Positions 26,101-32,589 of a stretch of 40,820 nucleotides of DNA are shown piece by piece. The DNA is taken from NCBI GenBank assembly GCA_007117135.1, contig SKHB01000043.1:1-40820 (forward strand). The letters are read 5' to 3'. The stretch comes from Microbacteriaceae bacterium (lineage in GTDB: Bacteria > Actinomycetota > Actinomycetes > Actinomycetales > Microbacteriaceae). Below the pieces are notes generated by a model that was given only the letters and a program-made list of their open reading frames with translations, searched no databases and was not told the origin of the DNA. Both the position numbers and the translations under genes were made by a program. Within the stretch, counting starts at the first letter, position 1; each line of letters begins with the position of its first letter.

Positions 26101-26234
26101 TCCTGGAGCGACTGGAGGCGGTTCGGCAAGCCATCGCCCAGCACCAGTTCGCCCTCGGTGAGGGCGGTGGTCGAACCGGTGGTGGACCCCCGAAGCACCG
26201 CTGGCATCTGATGGGCCAGGTGTGTGGTGACTGA
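23193..26234 (+). CDS. adnA: AdnA-like helicase-nuclease subunit
   Basis: A 1013-residue protein with an N-terminal UvrD-like motor domain and a C-terminal RecB-type nuclease, the AdnA layout. Walker A GAAGSGKTT is at 29-37. The Walker B site reads VDDVHD (Asp235, Asp236) instead of DExx, suggesting a weak motor, in line with AdnA being the lesser motor in mycobacteria. The nuclease has Asp896 and Lys898 in VVDLKTG, then QLLSYQLAL. AdnAB resects double-strand DNA ends in RecA-dependent repair. The GTG start follows a TAGCCT box by 6 bases. The end overlaps adnB by 8-11 bases, so the two subunits are translated together. Confidence 0.92.
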   Translation: MNMSANPQWAADTVACITADPTASQVVIGAAGSGKTTLLVERAAYLIDSFGLHPDQVRLLTPSRAQATRLRNDVATRIPRATRGPFAKSVASLAFGIVSADHIGRGLPQPTLRSGADIDEDIRSLLADHDDQAAPFAAVFDRVVWETETFRTELRELFARVIEHGHTASDLESWGKEFDRPEWVAAGQFMADYQQVIARSRPHSFEPAELIIRAATIVSQRMPDELADLRVLLVDDVHDIPASARRLLAACVSWGVSVTAVGDPDSAGQTFRGSDPDSPALLADLLSVTPTYLPEVFRHGKTLRDTVSRLVGRVGSARAGQQRQASSRVSDHDTPLLTITSGSTTEEDDAIARFIADRHHAGTRLDQIAVISRRAGALGGVARALGQLHIPSHLATRSPLSHEPAARELLWWTQAALSPEVITAERTAEMLAGIYGGWSALELRRFTTWIRLQEATAGTRRPASEVLRDVVVGDDIAIDAPDVLARHVDRTRRIIDTIRNVSTAPIDQVISAAWKVVGVEAEWVERAQAGGDGSRFASEALDAVVALSETATRFADTHPGVSADVFVSRILNQDVAEDVLVPEPLGEAVWLGTPSGAAGREWDTVIVHGLNDGVWPNTRLRGTLLGAPHVSWVSKGMAPGDIDQRRVVLDDEIRLAALAASRATSQLVVSAVSADDTVPSPLFDLMATDCPPWAGDDTSLRDVRSLVGALRRQRITGAQENDHQWATLGYLASVRCPGAHPDDWWGLAPATTTAPLFADEVVRLSPSKVANVEESPLMWLLDTIAPEPLPPTVDIGAIIHQAWENNPWGPAENMSAYVDSRWSDIPFDSVWLGEAKRAEAHRQIAALDHYLHDQRSEHIELVASEKKFEIAFPGALMTGFIDRIVRDASGNILVVDLKTGRHKTDGQVVDDAQLLSYQLALTTPEVSAEWGLDDVTTGGAYLLYVSSGKGGKPYRIAFQAPLDDDGREVFLERLEAVRQAIAQHQFALGEGGGRTGGGPPKHRWHLMGQVCGD

Positions 26235-29200
26235 GACACAGTATTCGGCGGCAGAAATTTGTGACCTTCTCGATCTTCACGCCCCCACCTCTGAACAGCA
26301 GGCTGTCATTGAAGCGCCCCTGGAGGGTGTGTATCGGGTGATTGCGGGTGCTGGGTCAGGCAAAACAGAAACCATGGCCCTTCGCGTGGTGTATCTGGTG
26401 GCCAACAGGATGGTGGCGCCCCAAGATGTTTTGGGTCTGACTTTCACCAAGAAAGCCTCCGGCGAGCTGTCACAACGGCTCGGAGAACGCATCGCGCTGC
26501 TGGGTGAGCGTCTGCCCAACATTCCCACCCCCGACCCGTTTGACCGACCCAAGGTGTACACCTACAACGCTTTTGCGACGAGGCTTTTCTCTGACTATGC
26601 CGTCTACCTGGGCGTTGACGGGGATGTTCAAGTGGCCAGTGCCGCAACGGCGTGGGGTATTGCCCGGCAAGTGGTGAAAGACAGCCGGGACACCAGGCTG
26701 GCTGACTTGGGTGTGGGCGTTGATCGGGTGGCCAGCCTGGTCCTCAGGCTCTCCCAATCACTGGGCGAAAACGAAGTGGATGGCGACGATGTCACCGCAC
26801 TGGTGAGCCGCGTGAGCGAGCTCGCCGATCTTCCCCACGGGGGTCGAGGTCAATACGCCGAGGTCGATGAATATGTGGGCAATGTGGCGTCGCTATTGCC
26901 GCTGTGGGGTGTGGTCGAAGACTTTCAAGAAGCCAAAAAACGCCGCGGCATTGTCGAATTTTCCGACCAGGTGCGATTCGCTTTAGACGTTGTGAGACGA
27001 GCACCCCAGGTGTCAGAAACTCTTCGCCACACACACAAAGTGGTGTTACTTGACGAATATCAAGACACCAGTGTGTTGCAGGCAAAACTGCTCTCAACAC
27101 TGTTTGCTGATCACCCGGTGATGGCAGTGGGAGACCCCCACCAGGCGATTTATGGCTGGCGGGGGGCAAGTGCGGGAAACCTCACCGATTTTCCCACCCA
27201 GTTTGCGCCGACAACGCAGGCAACAACATTTTCACTGGCCATTAGCTGGCGAAACTCGAAAGCCGTATTGGACGCCGCCAATACTCTGGCGATTCCTCTG
27301 ACCCGTGATAACCCCGACGGGGTTGTCAGCCTTCAGCCGAAACCAAACGTTCCAGACGGTCTTGTGCACGTGGAGATTTTGGAGACACTTGACCAGGAGG
27401 CTGAAGCAATCGCGTCGTGGTTTGGGCAACGACTGGTGTCAGGCGACGAACAGTCACCCACAGCCGCGCTTCTGCTTCGAAACAGGTCACACCAGGACGT
27501 TTTTGTTCGAGCACTGCGCTCACAGGGTATCCCCGTGCACGTTTTGGGCATTGGGGGGCTGTTATCTGACCCGGTTGTCGCCGACATGGTGTGTGGGGTG
27601 GCGGTTGTTCACCGACCCGAAGCAAATACAGAATTAGTCAGATTGTTGGCCGGGGGGAAATATCGAGTAGGGGTCGCCGACCTGTATGCCCTCGCTCAGG
27701 TGGCCAAGAAGTTGCGGCGAATACAGTCCACACCCCCTGGGCTCGACGCTGACCGCGGTGTGGACCCCATCACCCCACCAGCACTTTCGCTCGTCGAGGC
27801 TCTCGATTGGCTTCGAACAAAACCGGACACCGACGGTGTGTGGGAGTCGTTTTCGCCGGAAGGTCGGCAGCGACTGCGACGGGCTGCCGAGCTTATTCAC
27901 TCTAGACGGCGGTATCTCCACGACGATCTGATTGACCAACTGGTGGGCTTTGAAAAAGCTGTCGGGTTGGATATTGAGGCTTCAGCGAACCCGGAGCGCG
28001 ACGATTCCAAGAAGTCACGCGCTGCCCTGTTTGACGCCGCCGCCACCTACCAGGCCACCAGTGACGCCCCCACAGCGTCGGGTTTTATCGACTGGCTGCA
28101 GGAAGCCGAATGGCGGGACAATTTGCAACCGCGCAGTGACGACCCCGAACCTGGCTGTGTTCAAGTTCTGACCATTCACGGGGCAAAAGGTTTGCAGTGG
28201 GATTATGTGGCCATCCCACGGATGGTCACCGACGAACTTCCCTCGAAATCCCGTGACGGCAAAAAAGGCTGGTTGCAACGCGGCGAACTTCCCTACCCGC
28301 TTCGCGGTGACCGCGAGCATTTGCCCGAGTTCACTTTTGGTGGTGCCGAGACAAGAAAAGAAGTCAAAGACGCGGCCGAAGAGTTTTTTAGCCGGGTCGC
28401 CGATTACCATCTGGCTGAGGAGCGCCGCTTAGCGTATGTGGCCATCACGAGGACCAAACAGGAGGTGGGCCTGTTCGGGTCCTTTTGGGCAACGCAGCTT
28501 CGCCCCCGCACCCCTTCCGTGTTCATTCGGGAACTCGACAAGAGTGGGCTCATCGCACCGGTTCCCCAGGCGTCCGAATTCGACGAAAACCCTCGAGAAA
28601 ACGCCGTCGATGACGTGTTGTGGCCAGGGGACCCGCTCGGTGAGCGACGCCCCGCGGTCGAGCACGCTGCAGCTCAGCTGCTGCCCCACGTCGCCCGAGC
28701 GCCTCACGGCATTGACGAGTCGTTTCGACAGGCACTCGATGAGGCCATCACTGCTCAACACGCACCGCCTCGGGCCGCCAAACCTGCCATACCTTTCCGG
28801 TTGGCCGCGTCAAGCTTGGAGGGTATCGTGAAAGATTCTGACACGGTCATGGCTCGTCGCATGCGACCGGTTCCGCGGCAGGTTATGGGGGCAGAACGGG
28901 CAGGAACACTGTTTCACGAGTGGGTAGAAACCCACTATCGAGAACGCGGTGTCACCCTCCTCGCTGGAGATGTTGATATTGATGGCGAGCCGGAGGCGAA
29001 CACAATGTCAGACGAAGCATCCTGGCGGGAGGGTTTCCTCGCCAGCGATTTTGCCCACCAAACGCCTCTTGCTATTGAGCGGGAAATTCACCTCCCGATT
29101 GCTAGGCGGGTGGTGGTGTGCAAAATCGACGCCGTGTTTGAGACCGACACGGGTGTCGACATTATCGACTGGAAAACCGGTCGACCTCCGGCCAACGCCG

Positions 29201-29412
29201 AGGAGGAGCGTGCCCGGTCGTTGCAACTGTCGTTGTATCGATTAGCGTGGTCGGCGTGGAGTGGCATGCCGCTTGAACAGATCACCGCGGGGTGGTGGTT
29301 TTCAGCAACACGTGAACTGGTGCGACCAGCGACCCTGCTCACCATGGACGAACTAGAGGCCGTGCTCACCGACGCTTTTGGTGCTTATGAGGCGGGCGAC
29401 ACAAAGTCGTGA
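26224..29412 (+). CDS. adnB: AdnB-like helicase-nuclease subunit
   Basis: A 1062-residue UvrD-like helicase with a C-terminal RecB-type nuclease. Walker A AGAGSGKT is at 41-48 and a canonical Walker B DEYQD at 277-281, so this is the active, leading motor. Other motifs include GDPHQAIYGWRGA, LTIHGAKGLQWDYV and YVAITRTKQ. The nuclease has GTLFHEWVE before Asp982 and Lys984 in IDWKTG, followed by LQLSLYRLAW. Two GTG codons (26224, 26227) are possible starts, both inside the end of adnA. The last 28 bases overlap the convergent GT61 gene. Length is close to mycobacterial AdnB. Confidence 0.93.
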   Translation: MVTETQYSAAEICDLLDLHAPTSEQQAVIEAPLEGVYRVIAGAGSGKTETMALRVVYLVANRMVAPQDVLGLTFTKKASGELSQRLGERIALLGERLPNIPTPDPFDRPKVYTYNAFATRLFSDYAVYLGVDGDVQVASAATAWGIARQVVKDSRDTRLADLGVGVDRVASLVLRLSQSLGENEVDGDDVTALVSRVSELADLPHGGRGQYAEVDEYVGNVASLLPLWGVVEDFQEAKKRRGIVEFSDQVRFALDVVRRAPQVSETLRHTHKVVLLDEYQDTSVLQAKLLSTLFADHPVMAVGDPHQAIYGWRGASAGNLTDFPTQFAPTTQATTFSLAISWRNSKAVLDAANTLAIPLTRDNPDGVVSLQPKPNVPDGLVHVEILETLDQEAEAIASWFGQRLVSGDEQSPTAALLLRNRSHQDVFVRALRSQGIPVHVLGIGGLLSDPVVADMVCGVAVVHRPEANTELVRLLAGGKYRVGVADLYALAQVAKKLRRIQSTPPGLDADRGVDPITPPALSLVEALDWLRTKPDTDGVWESFSPEGRQRLRRAAELIHSRRRYLHDDLIDQLVGFEKAVGLDIEASANPERDDSKKSRAALFDAAATYQATSDAPTASGFIDWLQEAEWRDNLQPRSDDPEPGCVQVLTIHGAKGLQWDYVAIPRMVTDELPSKSRDGKKGWLQRGELPYPLRGDREHLPEFTFGGAETRKEVKDAAEEFFSRVADYHLAEERRLAYVAITRTKQEVGLFGSFWATQLRPRTPSVFIRELDKSGLIAPVPQASEFDENPRENAVDDVLWPGDPLGERRPAVEHAAAQLLPHVARAPHGIDESFRQALDEAITAQHAPPRAAKPAIPFRLAASSLEGIVKDSDTVMARRMRPVPRQVMGAERAGTLFHEWVETHYRERGVTLLAGDVDIDGEPEANTMSDEASWREGFLASDFAHQTPLAIEREIHLPIARRVVVCKIDAVFETDTGVDIIDWKTGRPPANAEEERARSLQLSLYRLAWSAWSGMPLEQITAGWWFSATRELVRPATLLTMDELEAVLTDAFGAYEAGDTKS

Positions 29413-30596
29413 ATTTTTTGCCGAATCACTGACGGGTCAAGGTGATAGTTGCTCGTAAAAATTCCGCCCTCTTCTGGGGTGTAAAACAGGTGCCAATAGT
29501 GCGAGTGTGTGAGGGTGGCGAGGTCAGGCAGGATTGTCATGTGGGTGAGGCGGGAATCCTGCCAACACAGCACGTGTGTATCAGGGGAGGCGAAAAGCAT
29601 CCCCGCAAACCCCGCACCAGATGGCCCAATGATGTGTGTTGCGCCGGAGAACAAAGTGACCTGTTCGGCCAAAGATAATGTCTCCGGGGCAACCGCGGTG
29701 AAACCAAACTCGGCGGCAACCGCGGCAATTTCATCCTGGTTGTATACCCGCCTGTTTCCGGTTCGGGTGATAAAAATTTTGTCGCCCCACGGTGACGTGT
29801 GCCCGCCGAAGCGGTCAAGGAACACTTGGCGGTATGACTCCATTCCTTCTCGGTGGAGGAGGTGAATTTGAGACACTGGTCGGGTAGCGACGAGACTGTC
29901 TGGGGCATTCATGATTTCGAGCGAATCAATCCAACACAGTGACCCCCGAATGCGCCCTCCTTCCGGAATGCGAATGACATCCCGGCCGTCGAGGAAAAGC
30001 TCCAATGCCTCCACCATGGTGGGGTAGCGAAAAATTGATTCGGGGACACACACCGGCCACGATCGGAACGGTTCGGGGAGCAGTCGGGCCGTGTGAAGCT
30101 GGGGCAGAGCATCCACCAGCCAGTGGTACCAGTTTGTGTGAGAATGGCCACCCAGCAAAATGGCGCCATCAGTGTCAGTGGTGTGGCCACGGGTCATGTT
30201 GACCAGCGCACGAAATCCCGACTCCCACACCACCTGGTTTCCTTTTCTGACCACCGTCCAGGGTCCGGGATTTCTGCGCGGCCCAATCATCATCTGGTTG
30301 CCGTGAACCAGGTAGGGGAAGTGGCGGGTGGCGACAGTCGTGGCGCGCTCGACAACCCGCCACCCCACGGGAGGAAAATGTTCTGGTTCTGGCTGGACGA
30401 AGGGCTGACCAAATTCTTGAACGCGCGAGGTGATAGCTGGTGTGGGGCCATAGATGGTGCCCTCGTGGGTGACGCCACGGGTGATGATTTCTTGCACCTG
30501 GACGGGTCTCACCCACCGGCTAATGAGCCAGCCCAGGCCCGGTATGTTCGCTAAAGCGTGGAGGACGATGTAAACGGTGCGAAGAATCTGCTTCAC
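29385..30596 (-). CDS. GT61-family (DUF563) glycosyltransferase
   Basis: A 403-residue protein with DUF563/GT61 signatures: HTNWYHWLVDALPQL from about 152, FITRTGNRRV at 275-284 and GPSGAGFAGMLF at 324-335. This family transfers sugars such as xylose or GlcNAc onto glycans or proteins; in bacteria it is often found in polysaccharide clusters. A hydrophobic N-terminal stretch (about 8-25) could be a membrane anchor. Acceptor and donor are unknown. GTG 30596 lies 9 bases after the upstream kinase-fold gene, so the two form an operon. No other polysaccharide gene is nearby. This gene is the odd one out in an otherwise conserved DNA-repair neighbourhood. Confidence 0.85.
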   Translation of the reverse strand: MKQILRTVYIVLHALANIPGLGWLISRWVRPVQVQEIITRGVTHEGTIYGPTPAITSRVQEFGQPFVQPEPEHFPPVGWRVVERATTVATRHFPYLVHGNQMMIGPRRNPGPWTVVRKGNQVVWESGFRALVNMTRGHTTDTDGAILLGGHSHTNWYHWLVDALPQLHTARLLPEPFRSWPVCVPESIFRYPTMVEALELFLDGRDVIRIPEGGRIRGSLCWIDSLEIMNAPDSLVATRPVSQIHLLHREGMESYRQVFLDRFGGHTSPWGDKIFITRTGNRRVYNQDEIAAVAAEFGFTAVAPETLSLAEQVTLFSGATHIIGPSGAGFAGMLFASPDTHVLCWQDSRLTHMTILPDLATLTHSHYWHLFYTPEEGGIFTSNYHLDPSVIRQKIHDFVSPAS

Positions 30597-30605
30597 CGCA
30601 ACAGT

Positions 30606-31568
30606 CTAGCTCTCAGAAGTGTCGCTCAGCGGATGGGGATTCTCGGTGATGGGTTCAGTGAGGTCTGATTCCATGTCCCCGGAGATACGGTCGTGAAGTT
30701 CGTTAATCAGCTGTGTTGCTTCGTCGACAATCTGTTCGTTTCGACTATCAATTCCGTGGAGTAACCACCGGGCGATGTCGAGTTCAGCCCAGAACCTGGC
30801 CCGTTGGAAAATCCGCTGGTCAGCATCTTGGCGGTTATCCAGGTAAGCGGTTTTTGCGGGTTCTAAACGTTGTGCCACATGCGGGGTGGTGAACCAGGCA
30901 ACATCTCTGGCCGGGTCGCCCACAGCCAACTCTCGCCATCCGGTGACCGCAGTGATGGTGACACCTTCGGTGAGGAACGCCCCCAAGTGAAGTGCGCCGT
31001 GAATGATGGTGGGTTCAAACTGCCACAGGTCTCGGTCTTCGTAGGCGGCTTCCCAACGGCGAAGAAGGTTCTTGGGAAGGAGAGTCGTTTTTGCTGCTCG
31101 ATCGACAATGCTGGTCGCTTTACGCATGGAATCCGTGGCGGAGTGGACAGGCCTGCCCTGGTCATACAACGTTGACGCGGGGATGGAGTGCAACTGGGCA
31201 ATCGCCTGGCCCACCGCTGAGGCCATGTCGGGTGTGATTTTGTCTTGACGTATGCGGACACCCGGCAAATAGGCGCCAACGCTGAGTGTCCGCCCCTCCA
31301 CCGTGGTGGTGCCAATGACGCGGGGGGCAGCGAAAGGTAAGCGGGAACGCAGGCCTTCGCCGATGGCTTGAGCTCCAGAAACTCGGTCACGCTGTTTCGA
31401 TTCGGCTTCGTCAGATTCGGGCACTTCAATCACCCAAGCCTGCCCGTCGGCATCCCAGGCGAGTGCTGAGCGAACACCGGGAAGATCAAATTGGGCAGTT
31501 TTCACCAACTGCATATCGGGCACAGCTGCGGCTGCCTGCGCCGCTAGCATGAGGGTGTGATGGCTCAT
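30606..31568 (-). CDS. Aminoglycoside phosphotransferase-fold protein, probably catalytically dead
   Basis: A 320-residue protein with the APH/choline kinase fold. The catalytic loop that should read HGDxHxxN reads HGALHLGA (190-197), so the base Asp is Ala192 and the Asn is Ala197. The metal-binding VIDW motif reads VTGW (208-211), with Gly210 for Asp. The family stretch GDPARDVAWF (217-226) that follows is intact, so the alignment is secure. I infer a pseudokinase or a repurposed fold. ATG 31568 (MSHHTLMLAAQ) was chosen over an upstream frame start; TACCCT (31581-31576, minus) ends 7 bases before it. The GT61 gene follows in the same operon. Confidence 0.82.
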   Translation of the reverse strand: MSHHTLMLAAQAAAAVPDMQLVKTAQFDLPGVRSALAWDADGQAWVIEVPESDEAESKQRDRVSGAQAIGEGLRSRLPFAAPRVIGTTTVEGRTLSVGAYLPGVRIRQDKITPDMASAVGQAIAQLHSIPASTLYDQGRPVHSATDSMRKATSIVDRAAKTTLLPKNLLRRWEAAYEDRDLWQFEPTIIHGALHLGAFLTEGVTITAVTGWRELAVGDPARDVAWFTTPHVAQRLEPAKTAYLDNRQDADQRIFQRARFWAELDIARWLLHGIDSRNEQIVDEATQLINELHDRISGDMESDLTEPITENPHPLSDTSES

Positions 31569-31581
31569 ACCATCCAGGGTA
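31569..31581 (-). promoter_or_regulatory. Leaderless promoter of the kinase-fold/GT61 operon
   Basis: TACCCT on the minus strand (31581-31576) ends 7 bases before the ATG at 31568. No ribosome site fits in between. It drives away from nudC, whose start is 76 bases to the right. Confidence 0.5.
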
Positions 31582-31644: not shown

Positions 31645-32589
31645 GTGACCTATTCGGAGAATCTTCCCCTGTCTCGAAACGCTCTGGACCGGGATGCTCA
31701 AAGCCGATCCGTTCCCGGCCTCCTCGATGACGCCTGGCAACGAGGTGACACCAAAGTGGTTGCCATTTGGCGGGGAGAAGTGCTGTGTGACACGGGGGAC
31801 ACTCTGGCTCTTCGACTGTTATCGCCCACCGAGGTTCTCCAATGGGAAAAAAGACTGTACCTGGGGAAGACGACCATCGATTCGGATGACGGGGTTCTCG
31901 CCGGAACGGTGATTATTGGTGTGATGTTGAGCGACGACCAAGCCAGGGCGATCGAACCAGATGTCACCAAATGGGTCAGTGGACGAACCAGCGGTCACGC
32001 TCTCGGAGCGCGCGATGCAGGCTTGCTGGTTGAAGCGTTGGCGCTGTCCAACTGGCACCGTTCCCACCAGTTCTCTCCCTTGAGTGGCGCAGCAACCAGA
32101 CATTCGGACGCCGGCTGGGTGTTGGTGGATGAAGAATCGGGCAAAGAGATTTACCCTCGCACCGACGCCGCAATTATTGTGCTGGTGACCGATTCCCATG
32201 ACCGCATAGTGTTGGGAAGTAATGCCATGTGGGAGGCGCAGCGTTATTCCCTCTTGGCGGGTTTTGTGGAACCCGGGGAGTCGCTCGAAGCTGCGGTCAT
32301 CCGCGAAGTCCACGAAGAATCGGGCCTCGTGGTGAAAAGCCCCGTCTACTGGGGAAGCCAACCGTGGCCATTTCCGGCGTCACTGATGGTCGGATTCCGG
32401 GCAGAACTTGACGAGGAAGCTTCGGGGGCCCTCCGGCCAGATGGGACAGAAATCATCGACCTGCGCTGGTTCAGCAGAGATGAACTACAAGCCGCACTGC
32501 CCACCATTGCCCTGCCCGGGCCCACGTCCATTGCCCGCCAAATGATCGAACACTGGTTTGGCAGGCCCCTTGTGTCGGGGCCGTGGTAG
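31645..32589 (+). CDS. nudC: NADH pyrophosphatase NudC-like, zinc ribbon lost
   Basis: A 314-residue Nudix hydrolase. The Nudix box is complete at 206-228 (GFVEPGESLEAAVIREVHEESG), and the NudC-specific SQPWPFP follows at 238-244, so NAD(H) pyrophosphatase activity (or removal of NAD caps from RNA) is expected. The zinc-ribbon region, normally FCxxCG and a second CxxC, reads FSPLSGAA at 143-150 and has no cysteine; Cys48 is the only cysteine in the protein. I chose GTG 31645 (MTYSENLPLS), with AGGGAG about 9 bases upstream, over an earlier frame start at 31606. It overlaps uvrD2 by one base in TAGTG. Confidence 0.9.
   Translation: MTYSENLPLSRNALDRDAQSRSVPGLLDDAWQRGDTKVVAIWRGEVLCDTGDTLALRLLSPTEVLQWEKRLYLGKTTIDSDDGVLAGTVIIGVMLSDDQARAIEPDVTKWVSGRTSGHALGARDAGLLVEALALSNWHRSHQFSPLSGAATRHSDAGWVLVDEESGKEIYPRTDAAIIVLVTDSHDRIVLGSNAMWEAQRYSLLAGFVEPGESLEAAVIREVHEESGLVVKSPVYWGSQPWPFPASLMVGFRAELDEEASGALRPDGTEIIDLRWFSRDELQAALPTIALPGPTSIARQMIEHWFGRPLVSGPW

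Follow-up and report, generated by a model that had tools for sequence, protein, structure and literature searches.

The protein described here has the fold of a macrolide phosphotransferase (MPH) and lacks all three classical catalytic residues. This loss is ancient in the Microbacteriaceae, and separate losses occurred elsewhere in the Micrococcales, the order as coded in the genome collection used, of which the gene is a near-universal core gene. The gene lies in the window, the 40,820-nucleotide stretch of Microbacteriaceae DNA that was analysed, which forms a single contig in a bin of 1.71 Mb with 86.5% completeness and 3.65% contamination. In the reading that we favour, with a probability of roughly 60%, the ancestor was an MPH-like kinase whose essential role was non-catalytic binding and whose catalysis was lost repeatedly.

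Fold and active site of the window protein

The reading frame, its coordinates and its motifs agree with the initial annotation: HGALHLGA occupies residues 190–197, Gly210 lies in TAVTGW, and GDPARDVAWF (217–226) is intact (Table 1). The sole Pfam match of the protein is APH (E 4.1e-13). The NCBIfam Mph models match weakly, the best being MphA, whose 50 bits fall far below the threshold of 550, and the curated cut-off is therefore reached for none of the Mph models. The AlphaFold model, calculated with 53 orthologues, has a pLDDT of 93.6 and a pTM of 0.88. Using Foldseek and VIA-align, MphH was the best PDB match (Z 24.9, 281 residues aligned, rmsd 3.7) and MphA the second (Z 24.7), although the absence of a family or fold from the Foldseek list does not rule it out. 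Since macrolide phosphotransferases are the top structural matches, the fold is of the MPH type; the kinase fold recognized earlier thus stands, and its assignment as APH is narrowed. The likeness to MphA, MphB and MphH comprises the full-length fold (Z 23.9–24.9), about 20–24% identity, the landmarks RWxxxxxD..W and GDPxxD, and the spacing of the catalytic site.

In pairwise alignments, Ala192, Ala197 and Gly210 stand opposite the D/E, H and D of MphA and MphH, whereby Glu is the base of MphH. The accessible part of PMC5760710 gives Glu196, His201 and Asp214 as the catalytic residues of MphH, and the spacing of +5 and +18 is common to these residues and to positions 192, 197 and 210 of the window protein. 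The alignments thereby bear out the losses that had been read from the HGDxHxxN and VIDW motifs. The protein shares the MPH/APH fold with active MPHs, but possesses neither a base at 192 nor metal-binding residues at 197 and 210. As in other pseudokinases, a kinase-like fold is found without the catalytic Asp and the metal ligands, together with a pair resembling H158/D220 of PKA (an analogy drawn from the available part of PMC2860764): His127 and Asp222 are invariant in all four groups compared. These sequence features strongly support a protein that is non-catalytic at the classical site.

Table 1. Features of the window discussed in the text; positions are those of the window
Feature	Position	Strand	Remark
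MPH-fold pseudokinase gene, 320 aa	30606..31568	-	ATG 31568-31566, stop 30606-30608
TACCCT, -10-like element of the putative leaderless promoter	31576..31581	-	7 nt before ATG
Codon 48, Glu replacing beta-3 Arg	31425..31427	-	Arg in 90/91 family loci outside the genus
Codon 62, Arg replacing acidic alpha-C residue	31383..31385	-	Glu in 96% of 25 'intact' loci
Codon 192, Ala replacing catalytic base Asp/Glu	30993..30995	-	pairwise alignments with MphA, MphH
Codon 197, Ala replacing metal-binding His/Asn	30978..30980	-	pairwise alignments with MphA, MphH
Codon 210, Gly replacing metal-binding Asp (DFG-like position)	30939..30941	-	pairwise alignments with MphA, MphH
GDPARD (217-222), retained structural motif	30903..30920	-	Asp222 pairs with His127, by analogy to PKA D220/H158 (available part of PMC2860764)
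C-terminal tail, residues 301-320, beyond the folded domain	30609..30668	-	genus-specific conserved LTxPIS..HPL
GT61-type glycosyltransferase gene	29385..30596	-	9 bases past the pseudokinase stop codon
nudC-like NUDIX gene, divergent neighbour	31645..32589	+	predicted start GTG 31645
adnB-like UvrD/PD-(D/E)XK gene, convergent neighbour	26224..29412	+	

Active-site states in the family and the order

Active-site residues were tabulated for 194 in-order loci and five further matches (four outside the order and the paralogue L109), with one locus per genome, apart from the genome of the window, which contributes two; the matches listed under-represent the weakest orthologues. The second locus of the window's bin (L031, contig C28) encodes a pseudokinase 89% identical to that of the window, while nudC, the adnB part and the glycosyltransferase reach 78%, 79% and 69%, respectively. 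This locus probably represents a second species in the bin.

None of the 109 Microbacteriaceae loci among the matches listed has the full triad, and 106 are without Asp192. Taken singly, Asp192 occurs in 3 of these listed loci, His or Asn at 197 in 4 and Asp210 in 9; the three with Asp192 read HGD or NGD and lack the other two residues. Among 80 loci of named organisms, Leifsonia, Clavibacter, Cryobacterium, Rathayibacter and Microcella included, 77 are without the Asp and none is intact. For the in-order loci outside the family, the triad is intact in 25 of the 85 listed, distributed over nine families: every listed locus is intact in f2 (1), f5 (4), f13 (2), f17 (1) and f20 (5), as are 9 of the 11 listed in f14. 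In f6, HGD and Asn/His are present and Asp210 is absent in 9/9 listed loci. Asp192 was also lost in f4, f7, f9, f10, f14 and f18. Intact orthologues in close relatives, named beforehand as the sign of a recent decay, were thus found in none of the family loci listed. Since the family has no intact locus and 25 exist in other families of the order, the loss is old rather than recent.

A tree of 129 rows was built with the trait columns left out; it is a quick build with long-branch warnings. The families cluster on it almost perfectly (20 changes for 20 groups, the minimum possible being 19), and inheritance is therefore largely vertical. Position 192 gained or lost its Asp in at least 10 changes and position 210 changed at least 19 times, these being minimum changes and not rooted losses.

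Retention, selection and promoter

The gene was found in 57 of 60 relatives, in 197 of 199 Microbacteriaceae genomes (178/178 of the good ones) and in 191 of 198 genomes of the order (182/187 of the good ones), mostly as a single copy per genome among the matches listed. Beyond the order, an orthologue was hardly found in class- and phylum-wide draws. The class-wide draw yielded matches in 20 of 197 genomes, 16 of which were the own genome or members of the order, the other four scoring 76–100 bits; in the phylum-wide draw, 7 of 198 genomes matched: the order supplied five, counting the own genome, and the remaining two scored 93–95 bits. Retention extends to a reduced genome consisting of a single 927,303-base contig (0.93 Mb), in which the frame of locus L046 is open and the three sites read KKN, Ser and Glu.

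A dN/dS comparison, proposed in the initial annotation, gave 0.026–0.078 in eight same-genus pairs and thus strong purifying selection, although several dS values are saturated. The closest pairs, with dS of 0.17, 0.32 and 0.86, have dN/dS of 0.068, 0.050 and 0.026, respectively. Some adnB and uvrD2 rows in this comparison (22–23% identity) are mis-aligned paralogues and were ignored. When the 300 positions are ordered by conservation, position 192 comes 197th in the family outside the window's genus; in the intact loci it is invariant by definition. His127, Asp218, Asp222, Arg256 and Glu262 are invariant in both sets. Trp172 is also invariant, and Trp182 nearly so. The same pattern, with catalytic residues lost and fold-holding residues kept, characterizes the spore-kinase pseudokinases in the available text of PMC2860764.

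The promoter claimed earlier was recovered as a conserved arrangement of a -10-like element and the start codon. Of 108 family loci, 106 have a TAnnnT that starts exactly 12 or 13 bases 5' of the ATG, and so do 178 of 185 in-order loci, for which shuffling predicts 2.05; the spacing could be read in 108/109 family and 185/194 in-order loci, the rest having no usable start or 30 upstream bases. A ribosome-site-like stretch occurs in only 9 of the 108 family loci, and we infer that the pseudokinase transcript is leaderless. A sigma-70 consensus scan did not report the TACCCT at 31581-31576. Maintenance of the gene by selection, visible in its retention, dN/dS and promoter, is a further feature shared with pseudokinases. 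With no full triad in the 109 family loci listed, strong purifying selection and a conserved promoter, the picture of a maintained non-catalytic protein put forward in the initial annotation holds.

Possible modes of action

As best we can infer from the sequences, the pseudokinase would act by binding or docking. An MPH-like small-molecule kinase would have turned into a pseudokinase, fully so in the Microbacteriaceae, and the C-lobe core (His127, Trp172, Trp182, Gly-Asp-Pro-x-x-Asp, Arg256 and Glu262) would provide a rigid docking surface. A partner would be recruited by the C-terminal tail, a flexible segment in which most of the family has a conserved short helix, and the old active-site cleft would be either dispensable or hold a ligand without turnover. 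Sequence by itself does not prove inactivity. Among the matches listed, 3/109 family loci keep Asp192 and the beta-3 Arg is kept outside the genus, and an acid gained at position 264 could take part in chemistry. More tentatively, the selected function may have been non-catalytic through much of the history of the gene, with an antibiotic-kinase fold and a tail peptide forming an order-wide docking hub, the gene being indispensable despite the losses of kinase activity, even in a 0.93-Mb genome; we rate this extended proposal as conceivable, though short of probable.

Outside the genus, 75 of the 91 family loci have a tail motif of the VxxVExML type, compared with 4.5 in shuffles, and across 63 rows the conservation of its V and L is 90% or higher. 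In the model the motif forms a short, low-confidence helix (tail pLDDT 47–59), and at this pLDDT there is no sign of docking onto the kinase domain, so that a tail docked there is unsupported. The window's genus lacks VExML and has its own tail, LTxPIS, in 14 of 18 loci; for this genus, the tail model therefore rests on a different and less tested tail. Both tails may be partner-binding peptides. An origin of the motif as an antisense artefact of adnB was rejected: the overlap of the two genes in L063 covers about 63 bases and lies downstream of the motif, and in L062 the neighbouring gene ends short of the tail.

A different use of the fold would be a ligand sensor, in which non-catalytic binding in the cleft, of either a nucleotide or a small molecule as in MPHs, controls a partner. 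We consider this unlikely, though with an appreciable chance. It bears on the N-lobe, for which no clear ATP lysine had been recognized at the outset. This observation is correct for the window protein, which has Glu48, but the residue of the lineage at this position is Arg and not Lys: among the matches listed, the 91 family loci outside the genus comprise 90 with Arg and one with Lys, and an acidic residue occupies position 62 in 90 of the 91. Since the beta-3 Arg is kept there, nucleotide binding may persist in the family outside the genus, and the invariant Trp172 and nearly invariant Trp182 are likewise in keeping with a sensor. However, the window's genus has Glu (15/18) or Ser (3/18) at position 48 among the matches listed, its nucleotide-loop segment has three residues fewer than that of most family members, and the three metal-binding and catalytic positions are all lost. 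The order as a rule combines Arg48 with an acidic residue at 62, and the charge-swapped Glu48-Arg62 occurs in 6 of the 18 genus loci; a strict charge swap was rejected on this count.

An unusual but active enzyme, in which other residues such as an acid at 264 took over or the reaction changed as in SelO, appears improbable; a takeover by other residues had been named in the initial annotation as a finding that would overturn its reading. SelO keeps the metal-binding Asp and Asn, whereas the window protein has Gly210 and Ala197 in place of such residues and differs in this from a SelO-type AMPylating pseudokinase; both of its metal-binding positions are lost. Asp or Glu at 264 is found in 106 of 109 family loci and in 0 of 73 Asp192-keeping loci outside the family, among the matches listed, as would suit a new catalytic residue. 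In addition, the site tolerates change, because the base of MphH is Glu and not Asp (alignment; accessible part of PMC6109786). On the tree, however, the acid at 264 requires few changes (four), and its link to the loss of Asp192 is not significant. This acid was therefore rejected as a substitute base and is better described as a clade-wide gain. The Asp192-keeping loci outside the family have Ala264 in 68 of 73 cases among the matches listed.

Gene neighbourhood

The flanks were long enough for comparison in 103 loci of the order. Of these, 79 have nudC as the divergent upstream neighbour (family 39/45, outside 40/58) and 72 have adnB downstream (family 31/45, outside 41/58); rows that place adnB upstream probably reflect the UvrD-like gene nearby and were scored as having no adnB downstream. 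This synteny makes a functional link to AdnAB or NudC possible, and the initial annotation had suggested that the protein serves DNA repair or NAD metabolism. Beyond synteny, nothing was found in favour of this role, and we regard a partnership with either neighbour as very doubtful. The pseudokinase gene has its own conserved and apparently leaderless promoter, is divergent from nudC and convergent to adnB, and is present without nudC being found beside it in 19 of the 103 loci. AdnAB occurs outside the order, for instance in mycobacteria, where the pseudokinase orthologue is hardly found. A decaying pseudogene can be dismissed: the loss of catalytic residues would fit, but the open frame, dN/dS of 0.03–0.08, conserved promoter and near-universal retention, reduced genomes included, rule out recent decay.

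The GT61-type glycosyltransferase gene is accessory, being confined to the sub-clade of the window (five loci, L001–L004 and L031), and is probably co-transcribed with the pseudokinase gene. The window NudC, in turn, has none of the zinc-ribbon cysteines in residues 141–174 (HQFSPLSGAATRHSDAGWVLVDEESGKEIYPRTD). The corresponding stretch is without Cys in 71 of 110 family rows (duplicate loci included), as well as in 3/3 rows from f15, the single f7 row and 1/10 from f6; the other rows keep three to four.

Relation to known kinases and pseudokinases

In contrast to MphA, MphB and MphH, the window protein is without the three catalytic positions, and its gene is a vertically inherited core gene and not a resistance gene. 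An active Mph resistance gene is ruled out by the active site and by the scores (50 bits against 550). Orthology to the MphH of Brachybacterium, a genus that may lie in the order, was considered and set aside, as MphH scores only 43 bits against the window protein. Because the family genes resemble Mph models, we expect that annotation may call them macrolide or aminoglycoside phosphotransferases; the family members are best read as non-resistance genes.

The host of the window is a non-sporulating actinobacterium. Kinase-like pseudokinases are a known kind of protein, while the MPH-descended family of the Micrococcales is undescribed in the open-licence PMC literature searched, in which no description was found of the family, its order-wide reach or its graded series of losses. 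The BSK pseudokinases, such as YutH and BSKC6, are kinase-like (CAK) proteins in which the catalytic Asp was lost independently; they retain the pair equivalent to H158/D220 of PKA, and a common non-enzymatic role has been argued for them (available part of PMC2860764). Set beside the window protein by description only, they belong to another subfamily and, in the same part of that source, to endospore-forming Firmicutes and a spore-coat context, whereas the window gene is an actinobacterial core gene with a putative leaderless promoter that adjoins adnB and nudC. The bacterial serine-threonine pseudokinase families of PMC12599244 are likewise conserved, but belong to the protein-kinase-like bSTK group according to the accessible text of that source; the term 'APH' was not found in its main text as searched.

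At a single locus, the order offers orthologues that are intact, half-degraded or fully degraded, a natural series from enzyme to binding protein through which the ancestral function may be approached. Near-universal retention points to a still unnamed core process of Actinobacteria. One Microbacteriaceae genome (G202) carries, in addition to the pseudokinase, an Mph-like paralogue on contig C6 (L109) that reads HGE..H..D and matches the Mph(E)/(G) models with E 5.9e-73; it is a different gene located elsewhere in that genome.
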